A stretch of 19,996 bases of DNA from Propionibacteriaceae bacterium (lineage in GTDB: Bacteria; Actinomycetota; Actinomycetes; Propionibacteriales; Propionibacteriaceae), in contig JAUNRO010000006.1 of assembly GCA_030544185.1 (NCBI GenBank), positions 1,571 to 21,566 of the forward strand, in the 5' to 3' direction. The position numbers were made by a program, and so were the translations under genes. The notes beneath the pieces were generated by a model. The model ran no database searches, was not told the origin of the DNA, and saw nothing but the letters and a program-made list of their open reading frames with translations. Shown piece after piece: positions 2,434 to 19,937 of the stretch (positions are counted from its first letter, which is position 1; the number at the start of each line of letters is the position of its first letter).

Positions 2434-3462
2434 TCAGGCGGTGAGCGCGGCGGCCAGGTGGGGCTGCAGGGCCGCCGCCACCTGTTCGGGATGAAGGTCG
2501 ATCATTGCCTCGGCATGCATCTTCTCGAAGTAGGTGACATCGCTGCGATACATCGGCGTGGGGTTCGACCGGCTCACCACGCGCAGCAGCAGGCCATAGC
2601 GCCCGCTCGGCGCCGGGCCGCCGCCATAGAGCGCCCAGTTGAACGAGGCGAGGTTGAGCGCGTGATAGCCCGCCAGCACCCCCGACAGCACCGCGCCGAT
2701 GTCCGCGCAGTCGTCGTCGGTGAGGTCCACGATGTCGTGGACCTCGGGCAGCACCAGATCCACCGCGTGGAAGCCGATCGGCGCCCACGGCGTCAGGGTG
2801 TGGACGCGGCCACGGGTGCCCAGCCAGCGGGGCCCGCCGGCCTCGGCCTCGATGAGCTCGCGCCAATAACTGTCCCCGGACCAGGCCTCGGACGCGGCGA
2901 CCAGGGCCCGCTGGGCAGTGGTGCCGAGGTAGTCATGGGCGGACTGGGCGTGCGGGTGGATCACCGAGCTCCCCGACGGGGGCAGATAGTTTGCGTTGAT
3001 CGAGTGCCACATCGGGCGTACGCCCCCGACCCCGCGCGAATAGGCGACCATGCCCACGAACAGGTCCCCGATCAGCTGCGGCGACAGCGCGTCGAGGTCC
3101 ACGAAGTGGCGCGTGGTGTCGAAGAGCCCCACCGCGGAGAACTCCGAATAGGACAACACATTGGGCACCACCGCGCTGACGCCCCGGCGGATGCGCCCCT
3201 CGTCGGTGATCGCCGGATCGATCATGCCCGTCGCGGACTCGATCCGGTCCTCGCAGAACGGGCAGAACCGCGGTGGCGCGACGAGGTCACTGAGGTCGGG
3301 GCGCGCGGCCAGGTCGAGCTTGGCCACGTGCAGGATCCGGGCGGTGTGCCCCAGCAACGGGTCGACGCGGATCGTCAGCTCGCCGTCGATGACCTGGGTC
3401 GCATCGCCCAGTTTCGGGACGCGCGCGGTGATCTGGTGTTCGACGAAAGAGATCTCGGCCAT
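2434..3462 (-). CDS. GalT-like (HIT superfamily) nucleotidyltransferase
   Basis: A 342-aa protein resembling galactose-1-phosphate uridylyltransferase. It has a C-P-F-C zinc-type pair (Cys67, Cys70) in the N-terminal domain and the catalytic H-P-H-A-Q motif at residues 169-173; by analogy with GalT the second His would carry the nucleotidyl intermediate. Near the C-terminus, Y-F-E-K-M-H-A-E matches the GalT Y-E-x-x-x-x-E region. It looks divergent, so the sugar substrate is not certain; it may belong to one of the uncharacterised GalT-like families of actinobacteria. The ATG at 3462 is 41 nt after the AEC transporter stop on the same strand, so the two are probably co-transcribed. No clear Shine-Dalgarno precedes this ATG. 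A 6-bp inverted repeat (GACGAG/CTCGTC, 3466-3471 and 3492-3497) spans the intergenic gap. Confidence 0.75.
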   Translation of the reverse strand: MAEISFVEHQITARVPKLGDATQVIDGELTIRVDPLLGHTARILHVAKLDLAARPDLSDLVAPPRFCPFCEDRIESATGMIDPAITDEGRIRRGVSAVVPNVLSYSEFSAVGLFDTTRHFVDLDALSPQLIGDLFVGMVAYSRGVGGVRPMWHSINANYLPPSGSSVIHPHAQSAHDYLGTTAQRALVAASEAWSGDSYWRELIEAEAGGPRWLGTRGRVHTLTPWAPIGFHAVDLVLPEVHDIVDLTDDDCADIGAVLSGVLAGYHALNLASFNWALYGGGPAPSGRYGLLLRVVSRSNPTPMYRSDVTYFEKMHAEAMIDLHPEQVAAALQPHLAAALTA

Positions 3463-3503
3463 GCCGACGAGGTTAATGTGCCCGCCGGTGACTCGTCCGG
3501 GGC

Positions 3504-4409
3504 TCAGGGCAACAACGGGAGCGCCGCGGTGACGGCGGCGGTGACGAACAGGCTGAGCAGCGTCGAGATCGTGACGGTGTCGGCGACAGTCCGCACATCG
3601 CCCTTGTATTCCAGGGACAACAAGAACGCGTTCACCGCGGTCGGCATGGCCCCGGCCAGCACGAGCGCCTGCAGCGGGACACCGCTCAGCCCGAACAGCA
3701 ACCCCACGCCCAGGGAGAGGAAGGGCATGCCGACGACACGGACGAGGCTGGCGGTGAGCACGGGGCGGGTGAGCTGCACGGACTTGGTCGCCCCGAGCTG
3801 GACACCGAGCGCCAGCAACACAATCGGCAGCGCCGCATCGGCGAGCATCTCGACCCCGCGCATGAGGCCGACGGGCAGCGACCACCCGAGCGTACGCATG
3901 ATCAGCGCGACCGCGATCGCCCACAGTGCCGGGAGCTTGGCCAGGTTCCTGAGCGACCCACCGATCCCCTGGCCGGAGCCGAACAGCAACGGCCCGACGA
4001 TGAACCCGAGGATGACCGAGGCCAGGAACATGAGCACGCTCTGCTCGAAGCCCGCCTGACCCAGCGCGAACAGCGCGATCGGCAGGCCCATGTTGCCGCT
4101 GTTGGAGATCGCCACGCTCGCCATCACCGCGCGCCGCGTCGGGGCGGCGACCGCAGGGGTGAGCAGGCCGCCGATCGCGGCGCCGACGAGCGAGACCGCG
4201 ACATAGGCGGCGATGAGTGTGGCGCCGACCGCACCCGACACCTCGGTGGTGAGCAGGACGTTCAGGCACAGCGCCGGGGTGAGCGCGTTGAGGGCGATCT
4301 TGCTGATCGTCCCCGCATCGAGGGGGAACAGCCGGCCGAGCCCGAACCCGGCGCCGGCCACGACCAGCACCGGCACGATCACGTTGCCCAGCGCCACCAG
4401 CAGTCCCAT
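3504..4409 (-). CDS. AEC (auxin efflux carrier) family transporter
   Basis: A 301-aa integral membrane protein with about ten hydrophobic segments in two groups of five around a central polar stretch (near RNLAKLP), the layout of the AEC/bile-arsenite-riboflavin superfamily. The first half has the family-like N-S-G-N-M-G-L-P-I motif; the second half ends in a hydrophobic helix with no tail. Bacterial members export or exchange small organic acids such as malate; the substrate cannot be read here. I chose the ATG at 4409 because AGAGG lies about 8 nt upstream and the first helix starts immediately; the open frame upstream is low-complexity and lacks a ribosome site. The GalT-like gene follows 41 nt downstream. 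Upstream is a 146-bp divergent spacer shared with the flavoprotein gene. Confidence 0.87.
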   Translation of the reverse strand: MGLLVALGNVIVPVLVVAGAGFGLGRLFPLDAGTISKIALNALTPALCLNVLLTTEVSGAVGATLIAAYVAVSLVGAAIGGLLTPAVAAPTRRAVMASVAISNSGNMGLPIALFALGQAGFEQSVLMFLASVILGFIVGPLLFGSGQGIGGSLRNLAKLPALWAIAVALIMRTLGWSLPVGLMRGVEMLADAALPIVLLALGVQLGATKSVQLTRPVLTASLVRVVGMPFLSLGVGLLFGLSGVPLQALVLAGAMPTAVNAFLLSLEYKGDVRTVADTVTISTLLSLFVTAAVTAALPLLP

Positions 4410-4438
4410 GGCCGCATCCTCTCCCGTCCTCCTCGGCC

Positions 4439-10506: not shown

Positions 10507-10602
10507 GACAAGGTGTCTCCAAACCGGCACAGCTGATGGCGCACCCGGCCGGCATGCGCAAGACTGCGCGGTGCCCCCGTGGAACAGATCACCTTGACGA
10601 TG

Positions 10603-10608
10603 AGGAGG
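10603..10608 (+). promoter_or_regulatory. Ribosome-binding site of the BenE-like gene
   Basis: AGGAGG lies 3 nt before the GTG at 10612 and inside the frame of the upstream candidate ATG at 10600. It favours the GTG start, although the spacing is shorter than usual. Confidence 0.45.
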
Positions 10609-10611
10609 ATC

Positions 10612-11859
10612 GTGTCCGACACGACGATCACAGACACCTATCGGCCGAGCCTGCGCCGCGACGTCTCGGCCTCGGCGATTCTCGCCGGGTTCATCGCGGT
10701 CGCGGTGTCCTATGCGGGCCCCCTGCTGGTGACGCTGGAGGCCGCGCGCGCGGGCGGTCTGTCGCCCGAGCTCACCGCGTCCTGGGTCTGGGCCATCTCC
10801 GTGGGCTCGGGCGTGATGAGCCTGATCTTCTCGTGGTTCACCCGCCAGCCGATCATGGTGGCCTGGTCGATCCCGGGTGCGGCGCTGCTGGTGACCTCGC
10901 TCGGACCCTATGTGGAGGCCGGGCGCTATTCCGATGTGATCGGGGCCTATGTGGTCTGCGGCATCGCCTCGGCGATCCTCGGCGCGACCGGTCTGGTCGG
11001 CAAGCTCATCGCCGCCACCCCGAAACCCATCACCGCCGCGGTCCTCGCCGGCGTCCTCTTCCCCTTCGCCATCAAGGTCGCCCAGGCCGTCGTGGACAAT
11101 CCACTGGTCGCGGGCGGCTTGATCATCGGCTATCTGATCGGGCGCCGCTGGAACCCGCGCTATGCGGTGTTCGTGGCGATGGCCTTCGGCGGCATGCTCG
11201 CCGCGGTGTCCGGGGCGACCGACCCGCTCGCGGTCGATATCGCGCTCACCGTCCCGGTCTGGGTCACCCCGACCTTCTCACTGCAGGCGATTCTGGAGAT
11301 CGCGGTGCCGCTGTTCATCGTCACCGCCGCCGGCCAGAACGCGCCGGGCCTGATCGTCATGCACCACTCGGGCTATGACGCCAACGACAAGCTCCTGCTC
11401 GGCAGCGCCGGTGTCGCCTCGGCGATCTTCTCCCCGTTCAGCAGCCACGCCCTCAATTTCGCGGCGGTCACGGCCGCGATCGCGACCTCGGCGGAGTCCC
11501 ACCCGGACAAGCGCCGCCGCTATATCGCCGGCATGTCGTGCGGGGTGTTCTATATCGTCGGCGGCTTCCTCGCGACGTTCATCGTGTCGCTGTTCTCCGC
11601 GATCCCGCCCGGCATGATCACCGCGCTCGCCGGCGTGGCGCTGCTCAGCCCGCTGCAGAACTCGCTCTATGACACCATGCACGAGGGCAAGCACCACAAG
11701 TCCGTCATCGAGGCCGCGCTCATCACGCTCGCCGTGACGATCTCCGGCATCACCGCGTTCGGCATCGTCTCGGCCTTCTGGGGCCTGCTGGCCGGCATCG
11801 TGGCGTACGCGATCCTGCGGCCGCGGCCGCCCAAACCGGACCCCGCCGCCGAGATCTGA
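10612..11859 (+). CDS. benE: BenE family benzoate/H+ symporter
   Basis: A 415-aa polytopic membrane protein, roughly 11-12 hydrophobic segments. The first part has the family pattern A-G-F-I-A-V-A-V-S-Y-A-G-P followed by S-W-V-W-A-I-S-V-G-S-G and then Q-P-I-M-V-A-W-S-I-P-G-A-A-L; the middle has A-A-G-Q-N-A-P-G and F-S-P-F-S-S-H-A-L-N. These match BenE transporters, which import benzoate with a proton. The exact aromatic substrate is not readable. Starts at 10579 (GTG), 10600 (ATG) and 10612 (GTG) share the frame; AGGAGG just upstream favours 10612. No benzoate-degradation enzymes lie downstream, so it acts with genes elsewhere. Eleven of its twelve tyrosine codons are TAT, odd for such a GC-rich gene. 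Two candidate hairpins follow it. Confidence 0.9.
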   Translation: MSDTTITDTYRPSLRRDVSASAILAGFIAVAVSYAGPLLVTLEAARAGGLSPELTASWVWAISVGSGVMSLIFSWFTRQPIMVAWSIPGAALLVTSLGPYVEAGRYSDVIGAYVVCGIASAILGATGLVGKLIAATPKPITAAVLAGVLFPFAIKVAQAVVDNPLVAGGLIIGYLIGRRWNPRYAVFVAMAFGGMLAAVSGATDPLAVDIALTVPVWVTPTFSLQAILEIAVPLFIVTAAGQNAPGLIVMHHSGYDANDKLLLGSAGVASAIFSPFSSHALNFAAVTAAIATSAESHPDKRRRYIAGMSCGVFYIVGGFLATFIVSLFSAIPPGMITALAGVALLSPLQNSLYDTMHEGKHHKSVIEAALITLAVTISGITAFGIVSAFWGLLAGIVAYAILRPRPPKPDPAAEI

Positions 11860-11869
11860 CTGGTCAGTG

Positions 11870-11892
11870 GGCTGGTCGTGGTCGCACCAGCC
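11870..11892 (+). terminator. Candidate hairpin downstream of the BenE-like gene
   Basis: GGCTGGT and ACCAGCC form a perfect 7-bp stem around a 9-nt loop, starting 11 nt after the benE stop. No T-tract follows. The rest of the 202-bp gap up to 12061 holds no convincing gene; a second, stronger hairpin lies at 12008-12043. Confidence 0.4.
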
Positions 11893-12007
11893 ACCACGCC
11901 AAGGCCACGAGCACCACCGTGAGCACACCTCCGCCGACCCAAGAATCAAGAGGGCTTGGAGCCGCTGCCGAGGGAGGGCTGCATCGCGCATAGCTTCCGG
12001 CACAGCA

Positions 12008-12043
12008 CAGGGCCCGGCCTCCGTCAGGGAGGCGCGGGCCCTG
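12008..12043. terminator. Strong bidirectional hairpin between benE and the sulfur operon
   Basis: CAGGGCCCG-GCCTCC and its near-perfect complement GGAGGC-GCGGGCCCTG form a stem of about 14 bp with one bulge and a short loop. It lies 18 bp beyond the stop of the chelatase-Tpx gene and about 150 bp beyond benE, so it can end both convergent transcription units. There is no T-tract, which is common for actinobacterial terminators. Confidence 0.65.
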
Positions 12044-12061
12044 TCGCGTTGATGCTCGGCG

Positions 12062-12559
12062 TCAGCCCAGCGCAGCCGTCGCCGCGTCGTAGTCCGGCTC
12101 TTGGCCGATCTCAGGCACCAACTCGGAATGGATGACGGTGCCGTCGGTGTCGAGCACGACGACCGAGCGGGCCAGCAGGCCCTGGAGCGGGCCGTCGGCC
12201 ATCGTCACGCCGTAGTCGGCGCCGAAGCTCGACTTGAACACCGAGCCGGTCTTGACCTTGTCGATGCCCTCGGCACCGCAGAAGCGCGCCTGCGCGAACG
12301 GCAGGTCGGCCGAGACGTTGAGGACGGTGGTGTTGTCATAGCCCGCGGCGAGCTCGTTGAACTTGCGGACGCTGGTCGCGCACACGCCCGTATCGATGCT
12401 CGGGAAGATGTTGAGGACAACGCGCTGACCCGACAGTTCGGACAGCTGGATCTCGGCGAGGTCGGCGCCGGTCACGGAGAAATCGGGGGCGGGGGTGCCC
12501 TGGGAGGGCAGGTCCCCGACGGTCTGGACGGGGTTTCCCTTGAAAGCAGTAGTGGCCAT
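12062..12559 (-). CDS. tpx: Thiol peroxidase (Tpx), nested as the C-terminal part of the chelatase frame
   Basis: From the internal ATG at 12559 the frame encodes 165 aa, the normal length of a stand-alone Tpx. Tpx is a thioredoxin-dependent 2-Cys peroxiredoxin that reduces H2O2 and organic hydroperoxides. It shows the typical F-P-S-I-D-T-G-V-C60-A-T-S-V-R-K-F-N peroxidatic site and the resolving cysteine C94 in F-A-Q-A-R-F-C, close to the C61/C95 of E. coli Tpx. The N-terminus (A-F-K-G-N-P, then G-x-x-P-A-P-D-F) is also complete, so nothing of Tpx was lost at the join. No clear Shine-Dalgarno precedes the ATG; a poor -10-like TAAACA ends 7 nt upstream, so leaderless initiation is conceivable but weakly supported. 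Independent translation or only fused product are both possible. Confidence 0.85.
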
Positions 12560-13258
12560 GCGCACATGTTTAGCAGGCCCCGTGAAACGCTCGACCAGCA
12601 GGTCGATCAACGCGGGATGCGCGCCGATCGGCGCCGTGGTCAGGTCCCCTCCCGCGGCCGCCAGTCGGCGGTGGAAGAAGCCTTCGGCGAGGAGGTACGC
12701 CGCGACCGCGACGTTCCCGCGGGAACGCGTGAGTTGTTCTGTGACAGGGATTCCGGGCCCGGAGAGGACGCCCAGCGACACGCGAACCCCCATTCGCTCG
12801 GCCAGCCCGTCGGCGACGCGGTGCGCGAGTGCATGCCAGGATTCGCGCGCCGATCCGGTGGCGCCCAGGACGACCGGCTCCCCCGTCCAGCCCGCCTCGG
12901 CGAGCCGGTCGGCGAGCGCGTCGATGATTCGGGGGTCGTCGCCCAACGGCGAGGTCACCTCGACGTCGGCATGCGCGGGCAGTTCGGCGGCCAGCGCTTC
13001 GGGGATGTCGGCACGGATGTGGTAGCCCTCGCTCAGCAGCAGAGGCACGACCACCACCCGCGAGGTCCTGTGCTCCACGTCCGCGTCGACCTCATCGGCG
13101 ACCTCGGCCAGCACCTGTGCGAGCGTCGGTTCGAGGACGTCGAGCCACGCGATCCGGACCGGGCCGACCCTCTCGGCAACAGCCGCCCGGATCGCCTCGA
13201 CGGTCGCCTGGCCCGCCGGGTCCTTGGTCCCGTGCGCGGCGAGGATGCGGATGGTCAC
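12062..13258 (-). CDS. sirB: Sirohydrochlorin chelatase fused in frame to thiol peroxidase
   Basis: The frame beginning at GTG 13258 runs 398 codons without a stop. Residues 1-233 are a sirohydrochlorin (ferro)chelatase of the CbiX/SirB type, which inserts Fe2+ to make siroheme. His9 (A-A-H-G-T-K-D-P-A) and His80 ([11 protein letters not shown]) are the two catalytic histidines; a second, degenerate repeat half follows, with G-F-F-H-R at about 203-207. Residues 234-398 are a full Tpx starting at its own Met (see nested entry). The GTG start overlaps the cysG stop by 4 nt (GTGA). Function fits the neighbours: CysG makes sirohydrochlorin and SirA uses siroheme. The missing chelatase stop is unusual; an out-of-frame TAA sits at 12570-12572, 10 nt before the Tpx ATG, so a single-base indel or sequencing error could have joined two genes. 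Chelatase identity is firm; a true fusion protein is uncertain. Confidence 0.85.
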
Positions 13259-14451
13259 GCGGCGGGAAGCTCGTCCCAGTCGGGCCCGAGGCGCACGACA
13301 TCGCCGATGACGATGACGGCCGGCGCCTGTACGCCCCGGGCCTCCGCGACGTCGGCAACCGAGGCCAAGGGCGCGACGGTGACGCGCTGCCCCGGCGTAC
13401 ACCCCCGCTCGATCAGCGCCACCGGGCACTCGGCTGACCTGCCGCCGGCGACCAGCGCCGCCGCGGTCGTGCGCAGCCCCGCGACGCCCATCAGCACGAC
13501 GAGCGTGTGCCCCGAATCCGTCGGGAGAGTCGGCAGCTGATCGTGCCCCGTGACCACGGTGAACCCGCGCGACACCCCGCGATGCGTCACCGGGATCCCG
13601 GCGGCGGCCGGCACGGCCAGGGCGCTGCTGATGCCCGGCACGACCTCGACGTCGACCCCCGCCTCGACGCAGGCGAGCCGTTCCTCCTCGCCGCGACCGA
13701 GCACATAGGGGTCGCCGCCCTTGAGCCGGACGACCCCGCGGCCGGCGGAGGCGTGCTCGACGAGCAGGCGGTTGATCTCATGCTGGGGCACCGGATGGTG
13801 GCCGGTCGTCTTGCCGACGTCGATGACGATCACGTCCGGGTCGAGGGTGTCGAGCACGGCCTGCGGGGCCAGCCGGTCGATGACCACGACGTCGGCGCTG
13901 TGCAGCAGCGTCAGGGCGCGCGAGGTCAGCAGCCCGGCGTCGCCGGGACCGCCGCCGACCAGCGCGACCCAGCCGGCGTGCGGCCGGCGCGGACGCAGCC
14001 CGACGGGGCCGGTGCGCAGGTCGTGGCTGATCCGGTTGCGGATCTCCACCGAACGGATCGGGTCGGCCGAGGACACCGCGACGGTGACGCCCCCGGTGGG
14101 GGTATCGACGGTGGCCCGGGCCGGCACCACGGCGGTCCCGGCGCGCGATTCGGACGCGTTCACGCACCAGAGGCCGCGCTCGGTGGCCATCTCGACGACC
14201 TTGCGGTCGATCTCGGGGTCGCCGGTCGCGGTGTGCACCAGGCGCATCCCGTCGAGGTCCTCCGGCGCGACGCCGCGGGCGTGCCAGCGTACGCCCGGGG
14301 GCAACTCCCGCAGCGCGGTGCACAGCACCGGCGCCACGACCGTCACCTCGGCGCCGGCGTCGACGAACGCGCGGACCCGGCGGGCGGACACGGGCCCGCC
14401 GCCAACCGCGAGCACGGGCACGCCGCACAGATCGACCGACAGGGAGAACAC
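13255..14451 (-). CDS. cysG: Siroheme synthase CysG-type: precorrin-2 dehydrogenase + uroporphyrinogen-III C-methyltransferase
   Basis: A 398-aa two-domain enzyme. Residues 1 to about 150 form a Met8/SirC-like NAD-dependent precorrin-2 dehydrogenase with G-G-G-P-V-S-A-R-R (17-25) and a C-V-N-A-S-E-S-R segment. Residues about 162-398 are a SAM-dependent SUMT domain: [25 protein letters not shown], and [22 protein letters not shown]. Together they turn uroporphyrinogen III into sirohydrochlorin. Iron insertion is probably done by the chelatase encoded next, whose GTG overlaps this stop by 4 nt. The GTG start directly follows the cysN TGA with no gap, so translation is likely coupled. The dehydrogenase half has Ser-Glu-Ser where many Met8-like proteins have an acidic D-D, so chelation by this half is doubtful. 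Confidence 0.93.
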
Positions 14452-15747
14452 TCAGATCACCCAGTCGGTGGCGGAAAGGTCCTGCGGCACGGTGTTCCGG
14501 ATCATTCCGGCCGCCAGCGTGTGACCGGTCTGGGCGTCGATCAGCAGGAACGAACCCGTCTGGCGCGACTCGGCGTACGTCTCCGCGGAGACCTCGTCGG
14601 CCAGCTTCAGGTGGACGCGGCCGATGTCGTTGAGCCCGAGGCTCTCGGCCGGGACTCCGGTCAGGGTGTCCAGGTCGAGCCGGCTGTCGAGAGCCTTGAC
14701 GATCGCCCGCACCGTGCGGGTGGTGTGCTTGAGCAGGACCTTGTCCCCCGCGCGCAACGGCCGCTCGTGCAGCCAGCACACCAGCGCCTCGACCTCGCGG
14801 GTCGGCGTGGGCGCGGCCTGCGCCGCGGCGATCAGGTCCCCACGGGACAGGTCGATGTTGTCGGACAGCCGCAGGCTCACCGACTGCCCGGCGAACGCCT
14901 CGTCCAGTTCCCCGTCGGCGGTGTCGATGCCGGTGACCGTGGCCGTGCGGCCGGTGGGCAGGACCGCGATCTCGTCGCCCACCCGCACGATGCCCGAGGC
15001 GACCTGGCCGGCATAGCCGCGATATTCGACGTACGCGGGGTCGACCGCCGCGCCCTGGGGGCGCAGCACATACTGCACCGGGAACCGGAACGGCTGGTCC
15101 TCGGGATTCTCCCCGGCGGGGAGGGCTTCCAGCAGTTCGAGGAGGGAGGGCCCGGAATACCAGGCGGTGTTGGCCGAGCGCTCGGCGATGTTGTCCCCGT
15201 GCAGCGCGGACACCGGGATGACGGTGACGGCCGGGATCCCGAGCCCCGCGACGACCTCGCGTACCCGCTCTTCCAACCCGCGGAAGACGTCCTCCGCGAA
15301 GCCGACGAGATCGATCTTGTTGACCGCGATGATCACGTGCGGCACGCGCAGCAGCGAGGCGACCGCGAGATGGCGCCGGGTCTGCTCGAGCACGCCGTGG
15401 CGCGCGTCGACGAGCAGCACGATCACGTCGGCGGTCGAGGAGCCGGTGACGGTGTTCCGGGTGTATTGCACGTGCCCCGGGCAGTCCGCCAGCACGAACG
15501 ACCGATTGGGCGTCGCGAAATAGCGGTAGGCCACATCGATCGTGATGCCCTGTTCGCGCTCGGCGCGCAGGCCGTCGGTGAGCAGGGCGAGGTCGGCGGT
15601 CTCCAGCCCACGCTCACGGCTGACACGCTCGACGGCGTCGAGCTGGTCGGCGAGGATGGACTTGGTGTCGTGCAGCAGCCGCCCGACGAGCGTCGACTTG
15701 CCGTCGTCGACCGAGCCGGCGGTGGCGAGCCTCAACAGGGTGCTCAT
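14452..15747 (-). CDS. cysN: Sulfate adenylyltransferase subunit 1 (GTPase)
   Basis: A 431-aa translation-factor-type GTPase that, with CysD, makes adenosine 5'-phosphosulfate (APS) from sulfate and ATP, driven by GTP hydrolysis. Visible motifs: G1 G-S-V-D-D-G-K-S (11-18), switch region R-E-Q-G-I-T-I-D (64-71), G3 D-C-P-G-H (88-92) and G4 N-K-I-D (143-146), followed by two beta-barrel domains. Length fits CysN alone; there is no C-terminal APS kinase (CysC) as in the mycobacterial CysNC fusion, which agrees with an APS-reducing pathway. Its ATG overlaps the cysD stop by one base (TGATG); its stop abuts cysG. Confidence 0.96.
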   Translation of the reverse strand: MSTLLRLATAGSVDDGKSTLVGRLLHDTKSILADQLDAVERVSRERGLETADLALLTDGLRAEREQGITIDVAYRYFATPNRSFVLADCPGHVQYTRNTVTGSSTADVIVLLVDARHGVLEQTRRHLAVASLLRVPHVIIAVNKIDLVGFAEDVFRGLEERVREVVAGLGIPAVTVIPVSALHGDNIAERSANTAWYSGPSLLELLEALPAGENPEDQPFRFPVQYVLRPQGAAVDPAYVEYRGYAGQVASGIVRVGDEIAVLPTGRTATVTGIDTADGELDEAFAGQSVSLRLSDNIDLSRGDLIAAAQAAPTPTREVEALVCWLHERPLRAGDKVLLKHTTRTVRAIVKALDSRLDLDTLTGVPAESLGLNDIGRVHLKLADEVSAETYAESRQTGSFLLIDAQTGHTLAAGMIRNTVPQDLSATDWVI

Positions 15748-16700
15748 CAGAAGTACCCCTCCTTCTTGCGGTCTTCCATGGCGGCCTCGGTGAGGCGGTC
15801 GTCGGCGCGGGTGGCGCCGCGCTCGGTGACGCGGGTGGCGGCGACCTCGGTCAACACGTCTTCGACGCCGGCAGCATCGGATTCGACCGCACCGGTGCAG
15901 GACATGTCACCGACCGTGCGATAGCGGACCTGTCGGATATGTGTGTTCTCACCGTCGCGGGGCTGGCTGAACTCGCCGACCGCGAGCAGCATGCCGTCGC
16001 GCTCGAACACCTCGCGCTCGTGCGCGTAATAGAGACTCGGCAGCTCGATGTTCTCCCGCGCGATGTAGCGCCAGATGTCCAGCTCGGTCCAGTTCGACAG
16101 GGGGAACACCCGGACGTGCTCACCGGCGCGGTGGCGGGTGTTGTAGAGGTTCCACAGTTCGGGGCGCTGGTTGCGCGGATCCCACTGGCCGAAGTCGTCG
16201 CGCAGGGACACCACGCGCTCCTTGGCGCGAGCCTTCTCCTCATCGCGGCGCCCACCGCCATAGACGGCGTCGAAGCGGCCGCGCTCGATCGCGTCCAACA
16301 GGGGCGCGGTCTGCAGCGGGTTGCGAGTGCCGTCGGGGCGCTCGGCGAGCCGGCCGTCGTCGATCCAGTCCTGGACCCGCGCAACCTCCAGCCGCAGGCC
16401 GAAGTCGGCGACCGTCTTGTCACGGAAGTCCATGACCTCGGGGAAGTTGTGCCCGGTGTCGACGTGCAGCACGGGGAACGGCACGGGCGCCGGCCAGAAC
16501 GCCTTGCGGGCGAGATGCAGCATGACGACGGAGTCCTTGCCGCCGGAGAACAGCAGCACGGGGCGCTCCCGCTCGGCGGTCACCTCGCGGAAGATGTGGA
16601 TCGACTCGCTCTCCAGGGCGGACAGCTGATCCAGGTGCCGGGCGCTCTCGCCAGTCGGGGCAGCGGTGCCCGCAACGGGCTTCGCAATATCGAGGCTCAC
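15747..16700 (-). CDS. cysD: Sulfate adenylyltransferase subunit 2
   Basis: A 317-aa PP-loop ATPase, the catalytic adenylyl-transfer subunit partnering CysN. It has the PP-loop S-G-G-K-D-S (52-57), H-V-D-T-G-H-N-F-P-E, the G-G-G-R-R-D-E-E-K-A-R-A-K-E-R region, L-S-N-W-T-E-L-D-I-W-R-Y-I and the family's R-K-K-E-G-Y-F C-terminus. The start is the GTG at 16700, overlapping the cysH stop by 4 nt (GTGA). The longer frame upstream of it is antisense or out-of-frame with cysH and not coding. An alanine/threonine-rich N-terminal tail of about 20 residues precedes the conserved L-D-x-L-x-x-L-E-x-E-S start of the domain. Confidence 0.96.
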   Translation of the reverse strand: MSLDIAKPVAGTAAPTGESARHLDQLSALESESIHIFREVTAERERPVLLFSGGKDSVVMLHLARKAFWPAPVPFPVLHVDTGHNFPEVMDFRDKTVADFGLRLEVARVQDWIDDGRLAERPDGTRNPLQTAPLLDAIERGRFDAVYGGGRRDEEKARAKERVVSLRDDFGQWDPRNQRPELWNLYNTRHRAGEHVRVFPLSNWTELDIWRYIARENIELPSLYYAHEREVFERDGMLLAVGEFSQPRDGENTHIRQVRYRTVGDMSCTGAVESDAAGVEDVLTEVAATRVTERGATRADDRLTEAAMEDRKKEGYF

Positions 16701-17473
16701 AGGTGGATCCCACATTCTGTCTTGCCGAGGCCGGCCCAACGGCCGGCTCGGGGGTCTTCTCCGGGGGCGACCCGGCGGGTGCAGGGGGCGCAACCGATCG
16801 ACGGATAGCCGTCGGCCAGCAGTGGGTTCACGGGCACGAGGTTGTCCTGGGCATAGGTGATGACCTCGTCGAAGGTCCAGGCCGCGAGCGGGTTGAGCTT
16901 GACCATGCCGTGGCTCTCGTCCCACTCGACGAGCTGGGCGTTGGCGCGCAGGGCGTTGTCCTCGCGGCGTACGCCGGTGATCCAGGCCTGATAGCCGGCC
17001 AGCGACGCGTTCAGCGGCTCGACCTTGCGCAGCCCGCAGCACAGCCCCGGATCGCGGTCGTGGAGCTTCGCACCGTGCTCGGCGTCCTGCTGGGCGACGG
17101 TCTGCCTGGGGTGGACCTCGACCAGCGTGATCGGCAGCTTCGCCGCGAGGGCATCGCGGGTCGCATAGGTCTCGGGGAAGTGATAGCCGGTGTCGAGGAA
17201 CAACACGTCGATCCCGGGCAGGACCTGGCTGGCCAGGTGCGCGAGCACCGTGTCACCGGCCATGGAGCACGCGACCGCGATCCCGCTGCCGAAGGTCTCG
17301 CCCGCCCACGCGAGGACTTCCTCCGCACCGGCATCGGTGAAGCGCGCGGCGGCCTCGGTGGCGATGGCCTCGAGTTCCTCGGGCGTACGCTCCGGCGGGG
17401 CGGGCAGGGAATTCACCGGTGTGTCCAGGTCGATCCGCTGCGCGCCCTGGGTGAGGTTGGACAGCTCGCTCAT
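16697..17473 (-). CDS. cysH: Assimilatory APS reductase (Fe-S, CysH family)
   Basis: A 258-aa thioredoxin-dependent reductase converting APS to sulfite and AMP. It has the adenylyl pocket S-M-A-G-D (70-74), L-D-T-G-Y-H-F-P-E-T-Y (93-103) and the arginine loop T-G-V-R-R-E-D. Cys145-Cys146 and Cys228-x2-Cys231 are the four ligands of the [4Fe-4S] cluster that separates APS reductases from Fe-S-free PAPS reductases. Cys254 in K-T-E-C-G-I-H-L is the catalytic cysteine. Lack of APS kinase in the operon agrees with APS as substrate. The ATG overlaps the sirA stop (ATGA) and has GGAGGAGG about 7 nt upstream, inside the end of sirA. Confidence 0.95.
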   Translation of the reverse strand: MSELSNLTQGAQRIDLDTPVNSLPAPPERTPEELEAIATEAAARFTDAGAEEVLAWAGETFGSGIAVACSMAGDTVLAHLASQVLPGIDVLFLDTGYHFPETYATRDALAAKLPITLVEVHPRQTVAQQDAEHGAKLHDRDPGLCCGLRKVEPLNASLAGYQAWITGVRREDNALRANAQLVEWDESHGMVKLNPLAAWTFDEVITYAQDNLVPVNPLLADGYPSIGCAPCTRRVAPGEDPRAGRWAGLGKTECGIHL

Positions 17474-19170
17474 GCCAGTGCCTCCTCCTCGGCCCGGTGG
17501 GCCCACTGGGCGAAGGACTCGCCGTCGGTGCGATCCGCGGCGTACCGGCGGATGATCCGCTCGGTCCAGTTGGGCAGATCCTCGGCGGTGACCTTGAGGC
17601 CACGGACGGTGCGCCCGAGCTGGCCGCCGTCGCCGGTGTCCTCCGCGAGCCCGCCGCCGAGGTGGATCTGGAAGCCGAACTCGCCCTGGAGCAGCTGGCC
17701 CTTCAGGCCGATATCGGCGACCTGGATGCGGGCACAGGAGTTGGGGCAGCCGTTGAGGTTGATCGTCAGCTTCTGGTCGCCGAGTTCGAGGTCGGCGAGC
17801 CGGTTCTCCAGCTCGTCGATCAGCGTGCCCGCGAGGGTCTTGGTCTCGACGAACGCGAGCTTGCAGTATTCGATGCCCGTGCACGCCATCGTCCCGCGGC
17901 GGAAGATGCTCGGCCTGGACTGGAGCCCGATGGCGTTCAGAGCCTTGACGAGCTCGTCGGCCTTGGCCGGGTCGACGTCGAGGACGAGGAGCTTCTGGTG
18001 CGGGGTGAGCCGGACGCGGTGGGAGCCGGCGGCCTCGGCGAGATCGGCGACCTGGTTGAGCAGCGTGCCCGAGACGCGGCCCACGACGGGGGCGACGCCA
18101 ACCCAGACGCGGCCGTCCTTCTGCTCGTGGACGCCGACGTGATCGTAGGTGCCGGTGCCCGGCCCGGGGGCCGGGCCATCGGGCAGCTCGCGGCCGAGGT
18201 ATTCGTCCTGGAGCACCTGGCGGAACTTCTCCACGCCCCAGTCGGCGATGAGGAACTTCAGGCGGGCCCGCGTGCGCAGGCGGCGATAGCCGTAGTCGCG
18301 GAAGATCGCGGTGACCCCGGCCCAGACCTCTGCGGCTTCCTCGGGACGGACGAACACGCCAACCCGCTCGGCCAGGCGCGGGTTGGTGGACAGGCCGCCG
18401 CCGACCCACAGGTCATAACCGGCGCCGAGCTCGGCGTGACGCACACCGACGAGGGAGATGTCATTGATCTCGTGCACGACGTCGAGGCTGGGATGACCCG
18501 TGATCGCGGACTTGAACTTGCGCGGCAGGTTCGAGAACTCGGGATCGCCGATGAAGCGCTCCTTGATCTCCTCGATCACCGGCGTCGGGTCCAGGATCTC
18601 GTCGGCGGCGATACCGGCGACCGGCGAGCCCAGGATCACGCGCGGGGTGTCGCCGCAGGCCTCAACGGTGTCCATCTGTGCCTGGTCGAGGCGATTCCAG
18701 ATCTCGGGAACGTCCTCGATGCGGATCCAGTGGTATTGGATGTTCTGGCGGTCCGAGATGTCCGCGGTATCGCGGGCGAAGTCAATCGAGATGTCGGCCA
18801 GGACCCGGAGCTGGTCGGTGGTGAGCGCGCCGCCGTCGAGGCGGATGCGCATCATGAAGTATTCGTCCGACAACTCCTCCGCGCTCATCGTCCCGGTCCG
18901 GCCACCGTCGATGCCCTGCTTGCGCTGGGTGTAGAGACCCCACCAGCGCATCCGGCCATAGAGATCGTCCTCCGGGATGGAGGCGAAGCCCTGCTTGGAG
19001 TAGGTGTCGATGATCCGCTGGCGGACGTTCAGGCCATTGTCGGCCGCCTTGAACTCCTCGTTGGCATTCAGCGGGGTCTTCCCGTCGACCTTCCACTGGC
19101 CCTGGGGCTTGGCGTTCCGAGCGGGTCGGGCCTTGCGGGCAGGCGCGGGGGCAGAAGTAGGAGGATTCAT
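17470..19170 (-). CDS. sirA: Ferredoxin-dependent sulfite reductase SirA
   Basis: A 566-aa siroheme/[4Fe-4S] enzyme reducing sulfite to sulfide. Residues from about 25 on closely track M. tuberculosis SirA/NirA as I recall it (P-L-N-A-N-E-E, R-W-W-G-L-Y-T-Q-R, D-I-S-D-R-Q-N). Cluster ligands are C430-x5-C436 and C475-x3-C479 (N-G-C-P-N-S-C-A-R). Tyr80 and Cys172 sit exactly 92 residues apart, the same spacing as the Tyr69-Cys161 thioether link described in the mycobacterial enzyme, supporting sulfite rather than nitrite use. The ATG at 19170 gives a basic, Pro/Ala-rich N-terminal tail. It has no good Shine-Dalgarno, and an in-frame GTG at 19245 would add 25 residues. First gene of the sulfur operon; a candidate promoter lies at 19255-19283. 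Confidence 0.95.
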   Translation of the reverse strand: MNPPTSAPAPARKARPARNAKPQGQWKVDGKTPLNANEEFKAADNGLNVRQRIIDTYSKQGFASIPEDDLYGRMRWWGLYTQRKQGIDGGRTGTMSAEELSDEYFMMRIRLDGGALTTDQLRVLADISIDFARDTADISDRQNIQYHWIRIEDVPEIWNRLDQAQMDTVEACGDTPRVILGSPVAGIAADEILDPTPVIEEIKERFIGDPEFSNLPRKFKSAITGHPSLDVVHEINDISLVGVRHAELGAGYDLWVGGGLSTNPRLAERVGVFVRPEEAAEVWAGVTAIFRDYGYRRLRTRARLKFLIADWGVEKFRQVLQDEYLGRELPDGPAPGPGTGTYDHVGVHEQKDGRVWVGVAPVVGRVSGTLLNQVADLAEAAGSHRVRLTPHQKLLVLDVDPAKADELVKALNAIGLQSRPSIFRRGTMACTGIEYCKLAFVETKTLAGTLIDELENRLADLELGDQKLTINLNGCPNSCARIQVADIGLKGQLLQGEFGFQIHLGGGLAEDTGDGGQLGRTVRGLKVTAEDLPNWTERIIRRYAADRTDGESFAQWAHRAEEEALA

Positions 19171-19373: not shown

Positions 19374-19937
19374 TCAGAGCGCGTAGCGGCCGCCGGCGTC
19401 TTTCGACTTCTTTCCCTCGCGCGGCTCGGGCGCCGGAGTCGCGCCGATGATCCGTCGCGAGGGGGGCGCGGTGAGCAGAACCCGATCCCCGTCGGAGCGC
19501 ACCTCGACCGCGATCCGCTCCCCCGGATCACCCAGGGCGCCGGAGCGGACTTCCAGCCGGACGTCGGTCAGCGAACGGCCGTGCACCAGCTCGCCGTGCC
19601 GACCCTCCCCCAGGGTCAGCTCGCCCGGCAACCAGGGCCCCTTGCGCAAGAACCCCCGCGTCCGCCCCCAGACGACCGTCATCGCCACGGCGCCCGCGAG
19701 GGCACCTCCCGCGAGTCCGGCCGCGGCCACCAGAGCCGCCAGTCCCCACGGCTCGCCCAGATAACCCAGGATCACGATCGCTAAGGCCGCCCCCGTCGCC
19801 ACAAGCCCAACGAACCCGGCCAGGAGGGCAATCCACAGAGTGCGATTCACCGAGCGCCGGGTTGCTGCATCGTCCCAGGCCGGTGACGATTGCGAATATC
19901 CCGGCAAGGGCAAAGGCGTGGTCGGCTGGTCACTCAC
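19374..19937 (-). CDS. Two-TM membrane protein of unknown function
   Basis: About 187 aa. A polar, proline/serine-rich N-terminus of about 35 residues is followed by two hydrophobic segments (near 37-62 and 68-92: T-L-W-I-A-L-L-A-G-F-V-G-L and A-A-L-V-A-A-A-G-L-A-G-G). A soluble C-terminal half of about 95 residues has strand-like stretches (L-T-D-V-R-L-E-V-R-S-G and I-A-V-E-V-R-S-D-G-D-R-V-L-L-T) and a charged tail. I do not recognise the family. The start is uncertain: GTG at 19937 abuts GGAGGA with no spacing, and the frame stays open to GTG codons at 19970 and 19982. It lies upstream of and on the same strand as the sulfur operon, but a 203-bp gap with a promoter separates them. Confidence 0.6.
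   Translation of the reverse strand: MSDQPTTPLPLPGYSQSSPAWDDAATRRSVNRTLWIALLAGFVGLVATGAALAIVILGYLGEPWGLAALVAAAGLAGGALAGAVAMTVVWGRTRGFLRKGPWLPGELTLGEGRHGELVHGRSLTDVRLEVRSGALGDPGERIAVEVRSDGDRVLLTAPPSRRIIGATPAPEPREGKKSKDAGGRYAL

Follow-up and report, generated by a model that had tools for sequence, protein, structure and literature searches.

In the 19,996-nucleotide stretch of Propionibacteriaceae DNA analysed here (the window), a sirohydrochlorin chelatase and a thiol peroxidase (Tpx) are read as a single protein, raising the question of whether the organism possesses a new bifunctional enzyme or whether two ordinary neighbouring genes have been joined at their boundary. The comparison with related loci highly favours the second answer: a stop loss of one nucleotide, either real or a base-level error, would join two ordinary genes in this sequence alone.

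One reading frame composed of two conserved genes

ORF translation of the minus strand, to which all features below belong unless otherwise noted, confirmed the continuous frame described in the original prediction: window positions 12062–13258 encode 398 residues with no internal stop, from a GTG at 13258 to a TGA at 12064–12062. The same frame remains open upstream as far as a GTG at 13429 (455 residues); the start was set at 13258 because homologous chelatases begin there in the alignment, and this GTG overlaps the stop codon of the preceding cysG-like gene (GTGA). Pfam assigns CbiX to residues 9–116 and Redoxin to residues 253–393 and, since conserved genes make up both halves, the frame is not a long open reading frame that arose by chance.

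The first half (12584–13258; residues 1–225) matches CbiX (PF01903) with 87 bits against a cut-off of 22, and His9 and His80 are invariant across a 12-sequence chelatase alignment. The CbiX domain, the paired active-site histidines and the fold of SirB (5zt8) are shared with class II chelatases of the CbiX/SirB type, to which this half can be assigned from its sequence. The frame differs from the listed homologues of the close group at its C-terminal end; those proteins terminate no more than ~10 residues past the last conserved Arg, whereas the window frame continues into Tpx. Among the six best-matching chelatases, five (P0003, P0004, P0005, P0243 and P0008) end with a Cys five residues past that Arg, P0006 being the one that does not, and a terminal Cys of any kind occurs in 5 of 120 chelatases among the matches listed (P0005 and P0131 are Ammonicoccus fulvus proteins). 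The chelatase is 57–65% identical to its counterparts in the related loci L001 and L057, compared to 73–94% for sir, cysH, cysD, cysN, cysG, tpx and benE; by this measure it is diverging faster than the surrounding genes.

The second half (12062–12559; residues 234–398) is a complete Tpx with its own ATG at 12559. Residues 234–397 match the NCBIfam thiol peroxidase profile NF001808 with 230.3 bits (cut-off 123), and Tpx Cys60 and Cys94, which are residues 293 and 327 of the frame, align with the cysteines of the solved Tpx structures 6udg and 1xvq. PDB titles for the E. coli Tpx counterparts designate C61 as peroxidatic and C95 as resolving. The original prediction that both halves retain their catalytic residues is thus upheld. 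The full-length profile match and both catalytic cysteines identify this half, at the level of sequence, as an atypical 2-Cys peroxiredoxin of the Tpx type; unlike 6udg and 1xvq, the Met of the window Tpx lies in phase with the open frame of an upstream gene.

Between the two halves lies a junction of 24 nucleotides (12560–12583), which is translated as the eight-residue linker TGPAKHVR (residues 226–233). An AlphaFold2 model of the 398-residue protein, built from a 15-sequence alignment, has a mean pLDDT of 79, with values below 50 at residues 230–247 and 346–362, and a Foldseek search with this model returned the Tpx entries 6udg and 2xpe together with B. subtilis SirB (5zt8). The model makes two separate domains plausible, and its reach ends there.

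Genomic context

The frame stands at the end of a run of co-directed genes assigned by profile matches: a sulfite/nitrite reductase, which is a siroheme enzyme (17470–19170; start taken from the orthologue alignment), cysH for phosphoadenylyl-sulfate/adenylyl-sulfate reductase (16697–17461), cysD and cysN for the small and large subunits of sulfate adenylyltransferase (15747–16676 and 14452–15747), a cysG-like precorrin-2 dehydrogenase/uroporphyrinogen-III methyltransferase gene (13255–14451), the chelatase and tpx. Convergent with tpx on the plus strand is the benE transporter gene (10579–11859), a marker of conserved synteny. L001 and L057 share this arrangement as far as a metallo-beta-lactamase gene at its other end, and L058 and L059 share part of it; from this synteny, the window stems from a Propionibacteriaceae member related to these. 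L058 has ~1.5 kb between cysG and tpx, in which no chelatase match was found at E 1e-10. A G+C-rich hairpin (12012–12062) directly follows the tpx stop, between tpx and benE. Its predicted stability is –24.8 kcal/mol (z –2.22; equally stable in 6 of 200 shuffles), and a terminator scan of 11860–13300 found nothing, leaving this hairpin without a call.

The CysG-like protein comprises an NAD-binding dehydrogenase domain (residues 5–111) and a methyltransferase domain (162–365). It scores 297 bits against the full CysG profile, under the cut-off of 400, and iron insertion is therefore probably the task of a separate class II chelatase. CysG siroheme synthase itself is described as a fusion of siroheme-pathway enzymes in PMC7018833. 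However, CysG unites enzymes that act one after another in a single pathway, with substrate binding shared between its modules, whereas the partner of the window chelatase is an unrelated peroxidase.

A one-nucleotide difference at the junction

Related loci with an adjacent chelatase–tpx pair provide a direct view of the separate state. Like the window, these loci carry the chelatase followed by tpx; unlike the window, all four (L001, from a Propionibacterium sp. MAG; L002; L022, from genome G076; and L024, from genome G074) have an in-frame stop between the two genes. The nearest relative by chelatase is G076, which also supplied L057, and its chelatase and Tpx are 65% and 85% identical to those of the window. 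From the final Arg-Phe codons of the chelatase to the tpx ATG there are 25 nucleotides with a TAA stop in G076, and 24 nucleotides without a stop in the window. The corresponding distances are 66 and 68 nucleotides in L001 and L002, each with a TGA stop; in L024 the distance, measured from the Arg codon, is 368 nucleotides with a TAA stop. L024 also has a small open reading frame between the two genes (beginning MCRNIRTLHNF), and hence the gene content of the junction varies among relatives. This small frame presumably encodes a DUF2277-type protein.

Alignment of the window with G076 locates the difference. The G076 chelatase ends in SRFSDSC, and its final TGC-TAA codons sit within the sequence TGCTAAACATG just 5′ of tpx, which is common to the window, G076 and L001. 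The Arg-Phe codons are separated from TGCTAAACATG by 9 nucleotides in G076 and by 8 in the window; consequently, the counterpart of the G076 stop (TAA at 12570–12572) is out of phase by one frame, and the chelatase frame enters that of tpx. In five of the six best-matching chelatases, the terminal Cys noted above falls at the place that corresponds to this G076 ending. The simplest history suggested by this comparison would be that the C-terminal tail of the chelatase, which is under little constraint, changed in length by one nucleotide.

The original prediction had proposed that a stop between the two domains in close relatives would speak against a fusion. Such a stop is present in all four, and in G076 it is a single nucleotide away from the window arrangement, but the relatives are other species, and by themselves they do not settle a one-nucleotide difference in this organism.

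Stop loss or sequence error

The change is known as a length difference from other species, and it could therefore have arisen in the organism or in its sequence. In the latter case, the chelatase stop of the organism would be intact, with one nucleotide dropped during sequencing or assembly. This explanation is a serious contender, although we regard it as somewhat short of an even chance when taken alone. Retention of the stop in four of four relatives is what it would lead one to expect, as is the size of the difference, a single nucleotide. In addition, the protein database holds the Tpx of the window as a separate 165-residue entry (P0123), with no 398-residue fusion among the matches listed; on the other hand, those matches do not include an intact matching chelatase for the window either.

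A frameshift control weighs further against an artefact. In the window, twelve further genes, amounting to 13,245 bases, were each aligned with orthologues (the best of L001, L057, L058 and L059 per gene), and every one aligned in a single uninterrupted frame; coverage was lowest for a membrane protein gene at 19374 (89%) and cysH (93%). Genes with no match in those loci stood outside the count, namely glpX, an octopine dehydrogenase-like gene, the gene at 2434–3489 and a transporter gene at 3504–4412. The corresponding indel error rate in the window is below ~2.3e-4 per base (95%). Frequent indel errors are thus unlikely, although a single error is still compatible with the control, and with such clean frames the fusion could be real and may be functional. 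Moreover, the C-terminal tail of the chelatase differs in length among the relatives, and real indels therefore do occur at this position. Taken together, the sequence comparisons incline us moderately towards a real one-nucleotide stop loss, with base-level error retaining a sizeable minority share of the probability.

A promoter-like element overlapping the former stop

The sequence in which the G076 chelatase terminates may have a second role. TGCTAAACATG (12565–12575), present in a single copy in the window, resembles an extended –10 element and lies at leaderless spacing to the tpx ATG, so that it is a putative promoter of tpx. The motif TGnTA occurs at –14 to –11 from the tpx ATG in 22 of 39 upstream regions, whereas 2000 shuffles gave 0.23 on average and never more than 2, and TA alone occurs at this position in 30 of the 39 against 4.0 expected from shuffles. 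The 39 regions represent the window and the 38 best-scoring loci (duplicate loci L001, L002, L018 and L048 excluded), from species whose relatedness the shuffles do not take into account and which do not form a random sample. TGnTA is absent from the remaining 17, including that of G002 (L017), the Tpx of which is 87% identical to that of the window; this region reads TGCAAGGATG, which could provide a ribosome-binding site instead of TGnTA. Among 198 family genomes, the longer string TGCTARACATG-N5-ATGGC had a single match each in G076 and G001, in both at tpx, and none in the others. Its reversed control also matched twice in those genomes, and the string is therefore telling by its place at tpx and not by its count.

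Comparable promoters have been described in this group: TAnnnT boxes and leaderless mRNAs have been mapped in P. acnes by RNA-seq (PMC3848588), and PMC3898074 associates the extended –10 TGNTANNNT with stronger promoters in M. tuberculosis. The window hexamer, TAAACA, lacks the sixth-position T of TAnnnT (extended form TGnTAnnnT, 6–7 nucleotides 5′ of the start codon), and a sigma-70 scan of 11860–13300 returned no promoter match. By eye, a TTG can be seen ~11–14 nucleotides before the TA of TGnTA in the tpx upstream regions of L021, L023, L037, L038 and L042. This TTG is too near for a usual –35 box; it may instead be bound by a regulator or belong to a promoter of unusual form.

Given the TGnTA element at leaderless spacing, free Tpx is probably still produced from a leaderless mRNA, even when ribosomes read through from the chelatase. 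A promoter role before tpx could also account for the retention of TGCTAA in the window.

Search for the fusion in other genomes

A fusion family would require more than one genome with an uninterrupted two-domain frame, and among the matches listed our searches gave no second one. When the 398-residue sequence was compared with 5.8 billion proteins, scoring the 7,998 candidates with the most shared words, no protein with both Pfam domains was found among the best 120 of 238. Among the matches listed for 198 family genomes (188 matched) and 391 order genomes (386 matched), two sets that overlap, there was no uninterrupted fusion spanning residues 1–398; the only listed match over this full range, in G001, has an internal TGA. 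The original prediction that no protein of this architecture had been described agrees with these protein searches and with the literature, in which we found no description of a sirohydrochlorin chelatase–thiol peroxidase fusion. As far as these searches reach, the architecture is a singleton.

Is the joined protein useful?

If the stop loss is real, it could have been fixed recently as a read-through fusion in which the tethered form is useful while the overlapping promoter yields free Tpx. We consider this improbable, if worth keeping in mind. It would give the organism two forms of the peroxidase, one of them tied to siroheme synthesis and produced together with the sulfate-assimilation enzymes.

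An evolved bifunctional enzyme, in which Tpx removes peroxide where ferrous iron enters sirohydrochlorin, appears less probable again. Conserved catalytic residues in both halves, a linker without a stop, two separately folded domains in the model and the adjacency of chelatase and tpx in several relatives could all be accommodated by such an enzyme. However, among the matches listed in the genome and protein searches described above there was no second example, the literature offered no precedent, free Tpx is probably still produced, and the linker bears no signs of design beyond out-of-phase promoter-like DNA. Nor did we find evidence for the earlier suggestion that a fusion protects iron, siroheme or sulfite reduction from peroxide; four relatives manage with separate proteins. 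Least probable of all, and by our estimate very unlikely, is ribosomal frameshifting at the G-rich tail that lets some ribosomes end at the old TGC-TAA and so yields normal chelatase alongside the fusion; the old codons are indeed retained beside the junction, but they also belong to the promoter-like element of tpx, and their retention needs no translational role.

Discussion

The reading that we favour, two ordinary neighbouring genes joined by a one-nucleotide stop loss, leads to a simple picture of expression. The chelatase and tpx would be separately working genes that close a sulfate-assimilation and siroheme operon, one directly after the other. Should the difference be real, the operon mRNA would be translated into a read-through protein of ~42 kDa, chelatase and Tpx connected by eight residues, and the two domains would be expected to fold and act independently across this short linker. 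A leaderless mRNA beginning at the tpx ATG would supply free Tpx, and would probably be the main source of the peroxidase. The join itself would probably be a recent, near-neutral accident that creates neither a channelling nor a protective enzyme.

The importance of the locus is modest unless the fusion proves to be fixed. If the junction is in error, it illustrates that one indel is enough to give the appearance of a novel enzyme architecture. If it is real, one nucleotide has shifted a stop codon that, in a relative, doubles as part of a promoter-like element of the next gene, and the window would offer a snapshot of the birth of a domain fusion, with the separate state still readable in the lineage. 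In either case, the conserved element of leaderless type that precedes tpx overlaps with a chelatase stop, a minor observation but one open to testing.
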